A program made the position numbers and the translations under genes. Under the pieces are notes generated by a model. The model was not told the DNA's origin. It worked only from the letters and a program-made list of their open reading frames with translations, and did no database searches. Source: an uncultured Christensenellaceae bacterium (GTDB taxonomy: Bacteria; Bacillota; Clostridia; Christensenellales; UBA3700). Taken from it: a stretch of 64,000 bases of DNA. The stretch covers positions 1 to 64,000 of the forward strand of contig CALWBV010000002.1 of NCBI GenBank assembly GCA_944376205.1. Direction: 5' to 3'. Of this stretch, positions 1 to 41,954 are shown piece after piece. How positions within the stretch are numbered: the stretch's first letter is position 1; every line of letters starts with the position of its first letter.

Positions 1-77
1 ATTGCGAGTTGAATCCGTCTCAATAAAAAACCTGCTATCTTACGATAACAGGTTTTTGGCAGGGGAGACGCGATTCG
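1..77. repeat. Upstream copy of the tRNA-Trp 3' end plus terminator (direct repeat)
   Basis: Positions 1-77 are identical to 139-215. The copy holds the last ~20 nt of the tRNA-Trp gene (CCA, acceptor strand and part of the T arm, read on the minus strand), its downstream terminator hairpin and a further segment resembling a tRNA T arm on the plus strand. The repeat may extend beyond the window edge. It cannot make a tRNA because the 5' part is missing. The pattern resembles a scar left by an element inserting at a tRNA 3' end, or a local tandem duplication. Confidence 0.85.
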
Positions 78-194: not shown

Positions 195-269
195 TGGCAG
201 GGGAGACGCGATTCGAACACGCAACCAATGGTTTTGGAGACCACTACTCTACCGTTGAGCCACTCCCCT
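195..269 (-). tRNA. tRNA-Trp (CCA anticodon)
   Basis: On the minus strand the acceptor stem pairs AGGGGAG with CTCCCCT, the D stem is GCTC/GAGT, the anticodon loop CTCCAAA gives anticodon CCA, and the T loop is TTCGAAT. The discriminator is G and the CCA tail is encoded. The cloverleaf is complete. Confidence 0.95.
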
Positions 270-2745: not shown

Positions 2746-4539
2746 TTAATTTATATGATACTTATTCGTGCAATACTTAAGCGCAAATACAAAGAAATAA
2801 AAAGGTATATTGAACAAAAGCACGCAGGGAAGTATAATCGTTCGCTCCATAGAAGAATAGTCATTGATATTCGCACCGAATTGTACAAATCCAAGCAGTG
2901 CTATCACTATAGGGAGAGTAATTACCGGTAAAAGCGAAATCAACAGTGTTGTTTTTGGGTTAAAATTCGCCAAAGATTTTTTGTTTGGTTCAATAGCGTA
3001 CATCACGCCTCGGATTATCGGATATACCGCTACAAACAAGATAGAAAACAACCAATAATTACTGATCGGATTGGTACGGTTGCAAATAAAATGCGAAACA
3101 ACTAATTCCAAAGCGATTATAAAGAACATGATCAGTGCAGTGTGAAAATGCAGTTTGTTGGAATAATAATATCTGTTGACATAAAATTCCATTGTATTTT
3201 TCTTGTTATAGGGTTTAATCGCAATACCTTTTGCCTGAAATTTGAAGACCATCTCATTCATACTCATGAAATCGTATTCGGGAGCGGCTTGGACAGGCTG
3301 TTCGTCTTCGACTTTGAACAAATCGGCAAACGAAGAAACGTAATTCACCTCATTATTTTCATCGAAATAATTATTTGACTGATAAAGAGGAGAGGGTTTC
3401 TCTTGCGATTGCACTTCTTGTTGATAATTGATATTTGCGTATTGATAATTATCAGTATTATTATATACAGGCTGTTGATTGTTTTGTACGGGTTGATTGA
3501 TAGGATAATTATTTACGATATTATCCTGCGAGTATGACTGCACGGTGCCGTTCGGCAAAGACGATTCTTTTTGTTCAACATTTGATTGAGTATTTGTGTC
3601 CGTATCAGTATAAGAAGGCTTCTCATATGTTTGTTGTGGTGCAGAATACTGCGAATCGGCGCCATTCGACAATTCACCGTTTACGTCAATAAACGTACTT
3701 TGAACATATTCTTCGGGCTCTTCGACGATATCTTGATGAAGTGCTTCTTGAGATTGATTTTGAGCAATCACGTTATCTGAACTTTGTATATTTTCTTCAG
3801 AATTACGTTCAGAAATCAAATCGTTTTGAATATTATTTCCTTCGACGTCATTGATTTGAGCGTTTTGCTGAATATCAGCCTGATTTGTCGAATTATCGTT
3901 TGCATAATTTTGAACAGGGGAATTTGAAGAAGCAAAAGAAGTCTGGTTTGCCTCAACTATTTCAGGGGATTGTACTTCTCTCAAAATAGCTCCGTCTTCG
4001 ACGGGTTTATCACTCAAAACATATTGTTGAGAAGAATTCATATTCTGACGTTGTTGCATTTCCTCGGGAGTACGAACAACTTCGATATATTTTATAATGA
4101 CTTCCTTTTCTTTTTCCTGTTCGGGCTTATTTCTTCTTGTAAGAGGTCTGAATTCGGTAGGATCGAACGGTTTTTCTTCTGTTTCGGGGTCGAATTTCGT
4201 ATCGGAAACAAGATTTGACATAAGGAAATTGCAAAATTCCCAATACGATTTATCGTCATTGAGATGTTTACGTCCTTCATCGGTCAATCCGTAATAAACT
4301 CTCTTTGCGCCGTTGGATACATCTCCGTCGTATGATGTAACATAGCCGCTTTTTTCCAGTCGTTTAAGGCTGTTATAAAGAGTAGCTTGTTTTAAGGTAT
4401 AAGTACCTTTACTTCTTTCTTGGATAGTATTAAGAATTTCAAGTCCGTATTTGTCTTTATCGGCAAGAGCAGACAAAACTATAATATCTGCCTGACCGCG
4501 CACAAAATCGACATTAGCATTGAAATTATCTTTTTCCAA
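2746..4539 (-). CDS. Membrane-anchored PadR-family regulator with long disordered linker
   Basis: A 597 aa protein of unusual build. Residues ~10-95 are a PadR winged helix: an N-terminal helix, the segment LKQATLYNSLKRLEKSGYV and the wing KRVYYGLTDEGRKHL. A Q/N/S/E-rich, probably disordered region of some 300 residues follows, and the C-terminus carries about four hydrophobic helices. Typical PadR proteins are ~100-200 aa and soluble. The start is TTG, with GGAGG eight bases upstream; the nearby ATG is out of frame. Upstream lies a LexA-type box (4666-4677), so the gene may respond to DNA damage. Target genes and signal are unknown. Confidence 0.7.
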   Translation of the reverse strand: MEKDNFNANVDFVRGQADIIVLSALADKDKYGLEILNTIQERSKGTYTLKQATLYNSLKRLEKSGYVTSYDGDVSNGAKRVYYGLTDEGRKHLNDDKSYWEFCNFLMSNLVSDTKFDPETEEKPFDPTEFRPLTRRNKPEQEKEKEVIIKYIEVVRTPEEMQQRQNMNSSQQYVLSDKPVEDGAILREVQSPEIVEANQTSFASSNSPVQNYANDNSTNQADIQQNAQINDVEGNNIQNDLISERNSEENIQSSDNVIAQNQSQEALHQDIVEEPEEYVQSTFIDVNGELSNGADSQYSAPQQTYEKPSYTDTDTNTQSNVEQKESSLPNGTVQSYSQDNIVNNYPINQPVQNNQQPVYNNTDNYQYANINYQQEVQSQEKPSPLYQSNNYFDENNEVNYVSSFADLFKVEDEQPVQAAPEYDFMSMNEMVFKFQAKGIAIKPYNKKNTMEFYVNRYYYSNKLHFHTALIMFFIIALELVVSHFICNRTNPISNYWLFSILFVAVYPIIRGVMYAIEPNKKSLANFNPKTTLLISLLPVITLPIVIALLGFVQFGANINDYSSMERTIILPCVLLFNIPFYFFVFALKYCTNKYHIN

Positions 4540-4627
4540 AATTGCATCCTCCGATTAAACAATTATATTTTACAATATTAATATAAAAAAAGCAAGAAAT
4601 ACTTCTCAAAAATTACATTATATAAAA

Positions 4628-4647
4628 CTATCTGACCGATCAGATAG
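4628..4647. promoter_or_regulatory. Perfect inverted repeat in the PadR gene leader
   Basis: CTATCTGA-CCGA-TCAGATAG has perfect 8-bp arms with a 4-nt centre. It would lie in the 5' untranslated region if transcription begins at the LexA-box promoter. It could be an autoregulatory operator or an RNA hairpin. Confidence 0.4.
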
Positions 4648-4657
4648 GAAAAATAGG

Positions 4658-4686
4658 GAAGTGTAGAACATCTGTTCATATTTTTA
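4658..4686 (-). promoter_or_regulatory. LexA (SOS) box upstream of the PadR membrane protein
   Basis: GAACATCTGTTC at 4666-4677 matches the Firmicutes LexA/DinR core GAAC-N4-GTTC exactly. Read on the minus strand, ATGAACAGATGTTCTACACT aligns with the box and -10 region of the lexA promoter at 7355-7374. The -10 would be TACACT (4663-4658). The -35 is weak. Confidence 0.55.
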
Positions 4687-4889
4687 CATAAAACTGAACA
4701 CCTAATTTTTTAATTGATTTACGATAAATTTTATAATTTTTTTAACCGTAAACCGTATCTGCAGTAAACTTGAAAACCCAATCGTATAAAATGAATAAGC
4801 TTAAAAGTTGATGTGATTATGCTTAATACATATTGGTTATTTATTTGATTAGATAATTCATCAAGCCGGATATAGAGCATAATATACTG

Positions 4890-4960
4890 TCAATTCAAGA
4901 GATTTTCTTGTGGTAAGATCGATTTCCTTATCAGCCTCATCCTTATTAGACTTGAATTGA
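4890..4960. repeat. rpsA-derived fragment flanked by 10-bp inverted repeats
   Basis: Positions 4897-4955 match 40548-40606, inside the ispH-rpsA gene, with a single mismatch (A at 4948, G at 40599) in 59 positions. The copy is bounded by a perfect inverted repeat, TCAATTCAAG (4890-4899) and CTTGAATTGA (4951-4960). The repeat arms are only partly present in rpsA itself. A plus-strand transcript would be antisense to rpsA mRNA. A TATACT hexamer lies at 4883-4888, but no -35 is evident. The origin is unknown. Confidence 0.9.
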
Positions 4961-4978
4961 TTTGACAATTAGAGACAA

Positions 4979-5191
4979 TTAAATAAGCTTTTTACTATTT
5001 TGCCGATTGCTTTTCCATACATGCTGATTAATAATCAGAATTAGATTTGATGATATGATATTCTTAACTTTTAAATTGAAGAATAAATTCAGTTGATCTT
5101 CCAAAAAGGCAGCTAAATTTCCTCTATTCAGAAGCGGAGCACACATATATTTATCACTTCGCAAAACGATAGCTTTGCGAATAGTTACCAT
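4979..5191 (-). other. Weak 70-codon reading frame, possibly a decayed gene
   Basis: The reading frame begins MVTIRKAIVLRSDKY and its first ~35 residues have a protein-like composition, while the rest is low-complexity and K/N/I-rich. There is no clear ribosome binding site and no family is recognised. It may be a remnant of a gene or chance. Confidence 0.15.
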
Positions 5192-5685
5192 GCAAATAGA
5201 ATATATAGTTCTTGAATAGTTCTGTTTTTTGACTTTTTTTATAAATATCTTAAAATTTCAATTTTTTAGGCATTTCGAACTTAAGATTAAAAATTATTCA
5301 TTTTTGCATCTATTTTATTTCACTCGATAAAATCCTAAAAATCTTGTCATCGAAATACCATGGCTGATTTATGCATCGGTCAACTTTTATCGCATAATGC
5401 TTAAATTTAGTTTTTTGCTGCAATATATTATATTCTCATTACTATTTTGTTGGATATAAAATATAAAAATATAAATATAACCCGCATTTAATACCGTGTT
5501 TAATCCATGATTTCATTTTCTATCATTCGCATTATTATAATATACATCGATACCATACTGCTATCAAATCAATTGTATAACCTAAAGAGATTTTACCTTA
5601 GTACATCTTTTTATTTAAGATTTTTTCAATTTATGTATAAAGTTTTATTTGAGCGTCAATAATTATATAATTGACTTATTGTTTA

Positions 5686-5721
5686 TTGTCTTTTTTCGGC
5701 AAATATGATATAATTAATATA
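5686..5721 (+). promoter_or_regulatory. Promoter of the xerS-like gene (leaderless)
   Basis: TTGTCT (5686-5691), 17 nt, TATAAT (5709-5714). The -10 ends six bases before the ATG, so transcription should begin at or next to the start codon. No Shine-Dalgarno is present. Confidence 0.7.
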
Positions 5722-6782
5722 TGGCTGATAAGACGTATTTTGAGCAACGTAATTACGATAATACCTTAAAATTGAGACAATTACTTAAGGAATTGCCCTA
5801 CATTTGCAACGACTATTTTATGGGCATCGAAAATCGTACTTCCATATTGACAAGGCTCGGATATGCGCAAGACCTAAAGATATTCTTTAATTTTCTTGTG
5901 ACTCAATGTGCCGAATTCGTAAATATCAAGGATATACGTCAATTCGGATACGAACAGCTTGAAAAGGTTGAGACTTTTCATATCGAAATGTTCCTGACAT
6001 ATCTTACGGCATTTGAGCATGACGGTATCGAATATACAAATACCGAAAAAACAAAAGCTCGAAAACTTGCCACAGTCAAATCATTTTTTAAGTACAACTA
6101 CAATAAGAACAGAATCTCGGCTGATCCTGCTTCAAAGGTGTTAAGCCTTAAATTGCATGACAAAGCCATAATCAGACTCGAAGTTGACGAAGTAAGCAAA
6201 CTTTTGGACAACGTCGAAAGCGGCGAAGGATTATCTCCCAAGCAACTTGCGCTTCAGAAGAAGACTCGAAAGCGTGATATTGCCATACTTACGCTTTTTT
6301 TGGGAACTGGCATAAGAATAAGCGAACTTGTCGGTATAGATCTGGACGATATAGATTTCAATATAAACGGCTTCAAAATTACGAGAAAAGGCGGAAATCA
6401 GACAATATTATATTTTTCGCAAGAAGTTGCCGACACATTGCAGGACTATATATTTGAGCGTAATTCTAACGAAAAACTTGCAAAAGAACCTGCTCTTTTC
6501 GTATCCTTGCAAGATAAACGTATAACTGTACGTGCGGTTCAAAACCTTGTAAAAAAATACGCAAGTATTACAACACCTCTGAAGCATATCACGCCGCACA
6601 AATTAAGGAGTACCTACGGCACTAATTTATATAAAGAAACAAATGATATATACGTAGTTGCTGAAGTTTTAGGTCATAAAGACATCAATACTACCAAGAA
6701 GCACTATGCGGCAATAAGCGACGAAATCAAGCGAAATGCGGCTACAAAAGTGGTACTTCGCAATCATGACGAAAACAATTGA
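5721..6782 (+). CDS. Tyrosine recombinase, XerS-like
   Basis: A 353 aa site-specific recombinase with an N-terminal SAM-like core-binding domain (about 30-135) and a C-terminal catalytic domain. All catalytic residues are visible: R199 in GTGIRISEL, K223 in RKGGN, H293 and R296 in HKLRST, H319 in LGHKD and the nucleophile Y329 in KKHYAAI. The length and the RKGG and PHKLR contexts resemble the single-recombinase XerS of streptococci (~356 aa) more than XerC/XerD (~300 aa), suggesting chromosome dimer resolution; a role in a mobile element cannot be excluded. It appears to be leaderless and ends in its own terminator. Confidence 0.8.
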   Translation: MADKTYFEQRNYDNTLKLRQLLKELPYICNDYFMGIENRTSILTRLGYAQDLKIFFNFLVTQCAEFVNIKDIRQFGYEQLEKVETFHIEMFLTYLTAFEHDGIEYTNTEKTKARKLATVKSFFKYNYNKNRISADPASKVLSLKLHDKAIIRLEVDEVSKLLDNVESGEGLSPKQLALQKKTRKRDIAILTLFLGTGIRISELVGIDLDDIDFNINGFKITRKGGNQTILYFSQEVADTLQDYIFERNSNEKLAKEPALFVSLQDKRITVRAVQNLVKKYASITTPLKHITPHKLRSTYGTNLYKETNDIYVVAEVLGHKDINTTKKHYAAISDEIKRNAATKVVLRNHDENN

Positions 6783-38639: not shown

Positions 38640-39052
38640 GAATATTATAATAAGTTTTATAACCTATCTACAAATTTATAATAACACAAAATTTATAATT
38701 ATACAATATTAAAATTTATTTATTACCGCAACTATCGTGTAAATCCTACAAAATTACATCTTATACCTCGTATAAAATTTACTAGAATTAGGAAAAATAC
38801 TACTATTCTTAAACACACTAAAATTATAAAGTGCAGAAGGATTGCTATAACAATAGATATATCTGTATTTTACATATTTGTATTAGAAATGAAAATCAAT
38901 CGGTAATTATTTGTTAATAAAAAAATACTCGCCCCTTTGACGAACATATAATATCTTATCAAATAGTACCTACAACGGATTATATCTTTGATATATACAC
39001 GTTCGTTTGGTCGGTATAGCGAGCGACTGACAACTAAAGTTGAGTATTTTAC
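38640..39052. other. AT-rich gap with a duplicated terminator arm
   Basis: No gene is supported. CAAAGGGGCGAGTATTTTTT at 38940-38919 (minus strand) nearly repeats the 3' arm of the tRNA-Tyr terminator (39075-39053). A GAGTATTTT...AAAATACTC hairpin spans 39042-39064. Confidence 0.5.
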
Positions 39053-39755: not shown

Positions 39756-41954
39756 TCAGTCCTTAATATCGAGCTTAAGTCCCTTGAAGAGATCTGCCAT
39801 AGTTGCAGTAGCGTTTTCATCGCTGGTCCAAGAAGAAATTTCTTCTTCCTCTTCCTTTTTAGCAACTCTGGTCTTCTTAACGGGAGCGGCAGTAACAGCG
39901 CTTGCGTCAAACTTTTTAGCGTTCTTTTTAGCGCGTTTCTCTTTAGCTTCCTGATAATCGTCTTCGCTTACAACAGTATCGTCAACAGGCTTTTCTTCTT
40001 TGGGGATAAGAGCCTTCATGGACAATGTGATTCTGTTGTCTTCAAATCTGATAATCTGTGCGGTAACCTGATCGCCGACTTTGAGTACGTCAGCGGGATT
40101 CTTGGTATAGCTGTGAGAAATTTCGGATACAGGAACAAGTCCGTCGATGTTGTCTTCGATAAGAACAAATGCGCCGTAATCCTTAACATCTCTTACAGTA
40201 CCTGTAATTACGCTGCCAACAGGATATTTTTCAAAAGCGATTTCATAAGGTTTTTTCTGAAGTTGCTTATATCCGAGTTTAACCTTGTTGTTTTCTCTGC
40301 TTACATAACGAACGATAAATTCGTATGTCTTACCGATTTCGAAAACTTCGCTTGCAGGAGTATTCTTGTTGTAAGAAGCATCGCTGTTGTGTACGAGGCA
40401 ATCAAAGCCGTTAACGCTTACGAAAGCACCGAATTCAGCAAATCTCTTTACTTTACCCTTTACGATTTTGTCCTTTTCAAAGAAAGCCCACATTTCGTCT
40501 TCTCTCTTCTTCTGTTCTTCTTCGAGAATAACTTTTTGAGAAGCAATAAGAGATTTTCTTGTGGTAAGATCGATTTCCTTATCAGCCTCATCCTTATTGG
40601 ACTTGATAAGACGAAGTCTCAAAGTTTTGCCGACATATTTGGGTAAATCAGCTTCTGTAACATAAGCAATCTTAATTTGGGATGCAGGAACGAAAATCGT
40701 ATAGCCGCCGTAGTAGCCCTTAAGACCATTCTTAACGCATTCCTTCATTTCCAACTTGAATTCGGGTTGAGAGAGCATTTCGATAGCGTCACTCTTCTCT
40801 TTGTTGAATCTGTCGATTTCTTTCTTCGAGAAATATATATACTCCTTAGGCAAGGATTTATTGGAATTCTTATCAACAACCTTAGCTTTGAATACGTCGC
40901 CCATCTTGTAGTTTTCGGGATTGTACTCTACGCCGTCCATTTCTGCATCGTCTTTGCAAACAAAACCGTCTTTCTTACCCTGGAAGTCTACCGTGATACC
41001 GTCTTCGTTAGCGGAAATAACCTTACACTCAACAGTCATACCGGGCTTCAGGTTCATAGCCTTGGTGTTTTGTGCAGCAAGAAGCTCGCCGAAAGTCTCC
41101 TCCTTTGCAGTTTCGTTCTCAATTTTTACATTTTCTTGAGATTCATTCATTAGATTTTTTACCTCCTCAATCAACTCCGGCGGAGTTGATGCACCGGCTA
41201 CTATGCCGATTTTTGTATTTTTTGCTACTTTTACCGATTGTAAATCGGATATTGTCTCTATAAGATGCGTATTCGGGCAATTCTTAATACTGATATCAAA
41301 AAGTTTTGAAGTATTAGAGCTATTTTTGCTACCCAAAACAAGCATTAAATCGCAGTTTTTACTGAGGGAATCGCACTCCTCTTGTCTGCATAGTGTAGTA
41401 TAGCATATTGTATTATTTCTATCAAGCATTTTTATATTATTTTGTAAAAAATTGATAAATTGCTCGACTTTGTTATGGTCATAAGTTGTCTGAACTACCA
41501 AGCAATAATGTTTTTGTTGATCAAAGACCATATTTGTCTCACCGTTATATATTAATGCGGTATTTTCACACCAACCGTTTATACCTTTTACTTCGGGATG
41601 ATTGGGATTTCCAATTATAATAATTTGTTTGCCCTGTTTGTAGTTTTCATATACGATATCGTGTATTTTCTTTACAAAAACACATGTACAGTCTATATAT
41701 TCGATACCGTTTGAATCAAGATAATCATATACATCTTTACCTACGCCGTGCGAACGTATGATAAGTTTTCTTTTGCCGACATCTTTCAGATCGTCAATAT
41801 AATCTATGCCCTTTTCCTTAAGTTTTTCCAGCACGCTTTCGTTGTGAATGAGTTTTCCGTAAACCACAGCAGGCTCATTCATGTTCATGGCAACGTTTAC
41901 CGCCTTTTTAACTCCCTGACAAAAGCCGCTGCTTTTGGCTACCGTTACGCTCAT
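39756..41954 (-). CDS. ispH-rpsA: IspH-ribosomal protein S1 fusion
   Basis: A 732 aa fusion known from Clostridia. Residues 1-~275 are IspH, the 4Fe-4S enzyme making IPP and DMAPP: cluster cysteines C12 (GFCQGV), C91 (DCTCVFV) and C184 (NTICYTT), plus HPEVKG and VVQTT. The usual Pro after C91 is Val. Residues ~300-690 hold about four S1 RNA-binding repeats, followed by a basic tail. The segment 40548-40606 is copied in the gap at 4.9 kb. AAGGAG precedes the ATG, next to the cmk-plsC stop. Confidence 0.95.
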   Translation of the reverse strand: MSVTVAKSSGFCQGVKKAVNVAMNMNEPAVVYGKLIHNESVLEKLKEKGIDYIDDLKDVGKRKLIIRSHGVGKDVYDYLDSNGIEYIDCTCVFVKKIHDIVYENYKQGKQIIIIGNPNHPEVKGINGWCENTALIYNGETNMVFDQQKHYCLVVQTTYDHNKVEQFINFLQNNIKMLDRNNTICYTTLCRQEECDSLSKNCDLMLVLGSKNSSNTSKLFDISIKNCPNTHLIETISDLQSVKVAKNTKIGIVAGASTPPELIEEVKNLMNESQENVKIENETAKEETFGELLAAQNTKAMNLKPGMTVECKVISANEDGITVDFQGKKDGFVCKDDAEMDGVEYNPENYKMGDVFKAKVVDKNSNKSLPKEYIYFSKKEIDRFNKEKSDAIEMLSQPEFKLEMKECVKNGLKGYYGGYTIFVPASQIKIAYVTEADLPKYVGKTLRLRLIKSNKDEADKEIDLTTRKSLIASQKVILEEEQKKREDEMWAFFEKDKIVKGKVKRFAEFGAFVSVNGFDCLVHNSDASYNKNTPASEVFEIGKTYEFIVRYVSRENNKVKLGYKQLQKKPYEIAFEKYPVGSVITGTVRDVKDYGAFVLIEDNIDGLVPVSEISHSYTKNPADVLKVGDQVTAQIIRFEDNRITLSMKALIPKEEKPVDDTVVSEDDYQEAKEKRAKKNAKKFDASAVTAAPVKKTRVAKKEEEEEISSWTSDENATATMADLFKGLKLDIKD

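Follow-up and report, generated by a model that had tools for sequence, protein, structure and literature searches.

We have identified a 59-bp copy of an internal segment of ispH-rpsA in the intergenic gap between a PadR-domain protein gene and a tyrosine recombinase gene of a Christensenellaceae bacterium. The patch is probably the product of one recent event, in which a strand being synthesized at a small hairpin switched to rpsA as the wrong template, and would now be neutral. The gap itself matters more than the patch, as it also holds a conserved dif-like site and has the setting of a replication terminus.

A recent copy of an rpsA segment

The window, i.e. the whole stretch of 64,000 nucleotides analyzed here, was compared with itself. 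Of the 59 bases at 4897-4955, 58 were identical to those at 40548-40606, read in the same orientation (98.3% identity; E about 1e-23), the sole mismatch being A at 4948 against G at 40599. A 59-bp block matching ispH-rpsA with one mismatch had been reported in an earlier note on this DNA, and its coordinates proved exact. The source segment is internal to ispH-rpsA (open reading frame 39756-41954, minus strand) and is still in place, intact, 35.6 kb from the copy, providing the identifiable template that marks a templated insertion; the plus-strand reading of the patch is antisense to the rpsA message. Searching the whole genome with 4700-5200 returned no third copy. The gap (4540-5720; 25.6% G+C) is flanked on one side by the PadR-domain protein gene (2746-4539, minus strand), which was used as a synteny anchor, and on the other by the gene for a 353-residue tyrosine recombinase (5721-6782, plus strand). 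The latter starts 761 bp downstream of the inverted repeat that bounds the patch, in agreement with the distance of about 760 bp given previously.

Besides the present genome (G000), 98 relatives were searched, and five, all of the same genus, matched the patch once each. These five matches are rpsA itself, since the aligned sequences run on as rpsA past the ends of the patch. In order to compare the locus directly, the sequence separating the PadR-domain and recombinase genes was extracted from relatives, nine of which were compared. Both gap ends and a stretch around 5140-5244 matched in the nine, and 4890-4960 had no match in any of their equivalent gaps. The middle of the gap in G000 gave no convincing alignment with any relative, nor was a patch-free ancestral sequence found among them. 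The rpsA genes of the nearest relatives are only 82% identical to the patch, versus 58 of 59 bases for the genome's own rpsA, so the patch was copied after the split from these relatives. At the differing position the rpsA of relatives keeps G (shown directly by the G014 alignment, and by those of G008 and G011 as its complement), and the A at 4948 is therefore the derived base.

The relatives within the genus are mostly metagenome bins, so G000 is probably one as well, and an artefact of assembling a metagenome-derived genome has to be weighed. We regard this as improbable: gene order on both flanks agrees with that of relatives, which speaks against a mis-join, and the copy carries a substitution of its own.

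The junction-spanning repeat and the origin of the patch

A perfect 10-bp inverted repeat with 51 bases between its arms straddles both junctions of the patch. The last three bases (AAG) of the left arm (TCAATTCAAG, 4890-4899, plus strand) and the first five (CTTGA) of the right arm (CTTGAATTGA as read on the plus strand; 4951-4960, minus-strand feature) belong to the rpsA match, and the remainders, TCAATTC and ATTGA, fall outside it, confirming that the arms are not both present in rpsA, as had been claimed. AAG and CTTGA are possible shared bases at the junctions, to be read with the caveat that the pre-insertion site was not recovered from the alignments of relatives. The arm pair was found once in the genome (on both strands, as a single palindromic pattern), with no second copy of the pair elsewhere in it.

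When the gap was shuffled in 60-base blocks, 0.42 such 10-bp repeats were expected per gap; in sequence this AT-rich, the repeat is therefore unremarkable by itself. Its position is another matter. Random 59-base pieces of the rpsA region were placed at random sites in the gap, and a repeat of at least 10 bp spanning both junctions arose in a fraction of only 0.0003 of 20,000 trials. On this test, which was post hoc, the repeat and the insertion are probably linked.

We hypothesize that, as the replication terminus was being copied, synthesis of a new strand came to a halt at a small hairpin between the PadR-domain and recombinase genes. Via a few bases in common (AAG on one side), the stalled strand would have jumped to the rpsA locus, been extended there by about 51 to 59 bases and returned at a second shared sequence (CTTGA). 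The arms might derive from a hairpin that was already present and had its loop replaced, or might have been perfected later by template switching between them. Afterwards, the patch would have drifted without function, gaining one substitution. The presence of the hairpin before the insertion is conjecture, because the middle of the gap aligns with no relative. Known bacterial template switches mostly take place within one hairpin, and a 35.6-kb jump with a return would be unusual, which counts against this origin. We nevertheless favor a template switch as probable, and of the three ideas in the earlier note (an antisense RNA, a mini-element that captures host sequence, and repair by template switching), the last fits best.

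Also counting against the template switch is that joining of double-strand break ends, with a stray fragment of rpsA DNA as filler, would leave much the same trace. We consider this main rival unlikely, although less so than any other alternative. The possible short shared bases at the junctions would suit it equally, and the terminus may be a plausible site of breaks; however, end joining alone leaves the perfect junction-spanning repeat unexplained. An origin from rpsA mRNA, by reverse transcription of a piece and its insertion, is the least probable of those considered. Although rpsA is a highly expressed gene, which speaks for such an event, a search for reverse-transcriptase domains in the genome, which is 95% complete, found no match, and retro-insertion was rejected.

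The favored template switch has precedents in other organisms. In E. coli, imperfect inverted repeats are documented sites of template switching (PMC7202029), and in yeast such switching has been found to render the arms identical (PMC8604942). As in the quasipalindrome mutations described for E. coli, a short inverted repeat is present at the site and its arms may have been equalized by copying; unlike in those mutations (PMC7202029), the template of the new sequence was a gene at a distance of 35.6 kb and not the other arm. The patch likewise resembles insertions templated by switching in humans (for instance PMC5120786): it is a copy of a remote locus and may share a few bases at each junction. 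It differs from them in its bacterial host, its very small size and the inverted repeat that bounds it. As a mutation, it is a recent and clean-cut case of templated insertion in the terminus region of a bacterium, and is mainly a data point.

Function, recurrence and other repeats

The patch shows no sign of function. It was suggested earlier that it might encode an antisense RNA against the S1 message, which would be a small RNA directed at the ispH-rpsA transcript with its antisense stretch looped out on a hairpin stem. For 59 bases the plus strand does run antisense to rpsA, and the predicted fold has the arms paired, but the idea gained no support and we consider it very unlikely. No promoter-like site on the plus strand, as such an RNA would need, was found in 4500-5170. 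Folds of 86 bases gave z-scores of -0.95 and -1.71 for the two strands relative to shuffled sequences, neither clearly better than the shuffles, and folds of 131 bases gave positive z-scores. Rfam returned no match above threshold; sub-threshold matches to microRNA families were taken as chance. Furthermore, the patch is found in no relative and carries its own substitution.

A hairpin-bounded mini-element that captures host sequence, the other idea raised previously, is just as unlikely. The ends of the repeat coincide with the ends of the captured piece, as would suit such an element, but a mobile element with inverted-repeat ends, in multiple copies or with other cargo, was not found: there is a single arm pair in the genome, and when the gaps of G011 and G006 were compared with their own genomes, only self-matches were returned, so the proposed check for other gene fragments in relatives came back empty for these two. 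Within a 636-kb sample of the genome (contig C2 whole and parts of C1, C3 and C4), no intergenic sequence other than the patch copied a coding segment with at least 95% identity, and the remaining mixed coding/intergenic matches were a dispersed repeat family, a spurious open reading frame and a 40-bp match at 90%. A search of a phage collection gave no match, and a pattern scan of viral contigs gave nothing. A broader reading, in which the terminus gap is a recurrent landing place where hairpins acquire, through long-range template switching, host-gene fragments that differ between strains, is likewise highly improbable. If strains did carry different fragments, this would be an unexpected source of new intergenic sequence.

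Several other repeats were observed. At the contig end, a 77-bp perfect direct repeat occupies window positions 1-77 and 139-215, and its second copy enters the 3' part of a tRNA-Trp gene (195-269, minus strand), pointing to a duplicated attachment site or to an element truncated where the contig stops. On C2, a 435-bp non-coding unit is present at 95740-96720 in 2.3 tandem copies of 97% identity, directly after an apparent tRNA 3' end; part of it (56 bp, 86% identity) recurs at window 38961-39016, beside a tRNA cluster. Dispersed intergenic repeats that are richer in G+C, with units of approximately 100-130 bp and 85-92% identity, are located on C1 (72 kb), C3 (6 kb) and C4 (19.7 kb). A 40-bp match (90%) on C1 pairs the start region of an asd-like gene with the spacer after a dapB-like gene (97688-97727 and 100626-100665), and may be either a shared regulatory site or a second small fragment. 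Finally, a 45-bp intergenic block with inverted arms AATTTATACAATTTA / TAAATTGTATAAATT occurs twice on C4 (62254-62298 and 94740-94784) and is possibly an operator.

A dif-like site beside the recombinase gene

The gap also contains a dif-like Xer site of 11+6+11 bp that the earlier note had overlooked. Positions 5156-5183 read ACTTCGCAAAA-CGATAG-CTTTGCGAATA, a sequence found once in the genome when up to three mismatches are allowed. The site is conserved across the genus and into related genera: it is identical in G006, G008 and G011, differs at two to four positions in another seven loci of the genus, and at more distant loci keeps the arms TATTCGCAAAA / TTTTGCGAATA with varied centres. In shuffled versions of the window, zero matches to the consensus TATTCGCAAAA-N6-TTTTGCGAATA are expected. 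Near 4-8 kb of the window, GC skew turns from positive to negative, and in G006 the site lies at 99,259 of its contig, with the cumulative skew peaking in the bin that ends at 100,000. Because a strongly conserved dif-like site thus lies beside an XerS-like recombinase gene at a switch in GC skew, the gap is very probably the replication terminus.

A LexA-type box (GAACATCTGTTC, 4666-4677) lies between the PadR-domain gene and the patch, where a LexA box had indeed been noted. Of 100 shuffled windows, 53 contained at least one LexA-type match; the evidence for the box is therefore not the match itself but its degenerate counterparts, which four relatives carry at the corresponding end of the gap. 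The possibility that the LexA box is the dif-like site was rejected, as the pattern search gave a separate, real LexA-type match.

The closest NCBIfam model to the recombinase is XerS, the best among the models listed, although the protein scores 180 bits against a cut-off of 267. A single-recombinase system would be expected to lack a separate XerC/XerD pair, and three other integrase-family genes are present in the genome. The one on C16 adjoins a gene resembling a plasmid-type replication protein and is probably mobile; there may be a second Xer protein in the genome. XerS and XerH are single recombinases linked to their sites, according to reviews (PMC5357621). Like XerS/difSL of streptococci and XerH/difH of epsilonproteobacteria (PMC5357621), the present system combines a recombinase of about 350 residues with a site beside its gene, at the terminus. 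It differs from XerS/difSL in that the recombinase falls below the XerS cut-off and in that the site, which is nearly perfectly symmetrical, has a 6-bp centre, whereas difSL has an 11-bp centre. A light literature search found no description of the 5156-5183 site and recombinase system. Together, the dif-like site and the recombinase probably form a module that resolves chromosome dimers, perhaps with a single recombinase. The site with its linked recombinase is of wider use than the patch, as a possible single-recombinase dimer-resolution module in Christensenellaceae-like Clostridia.
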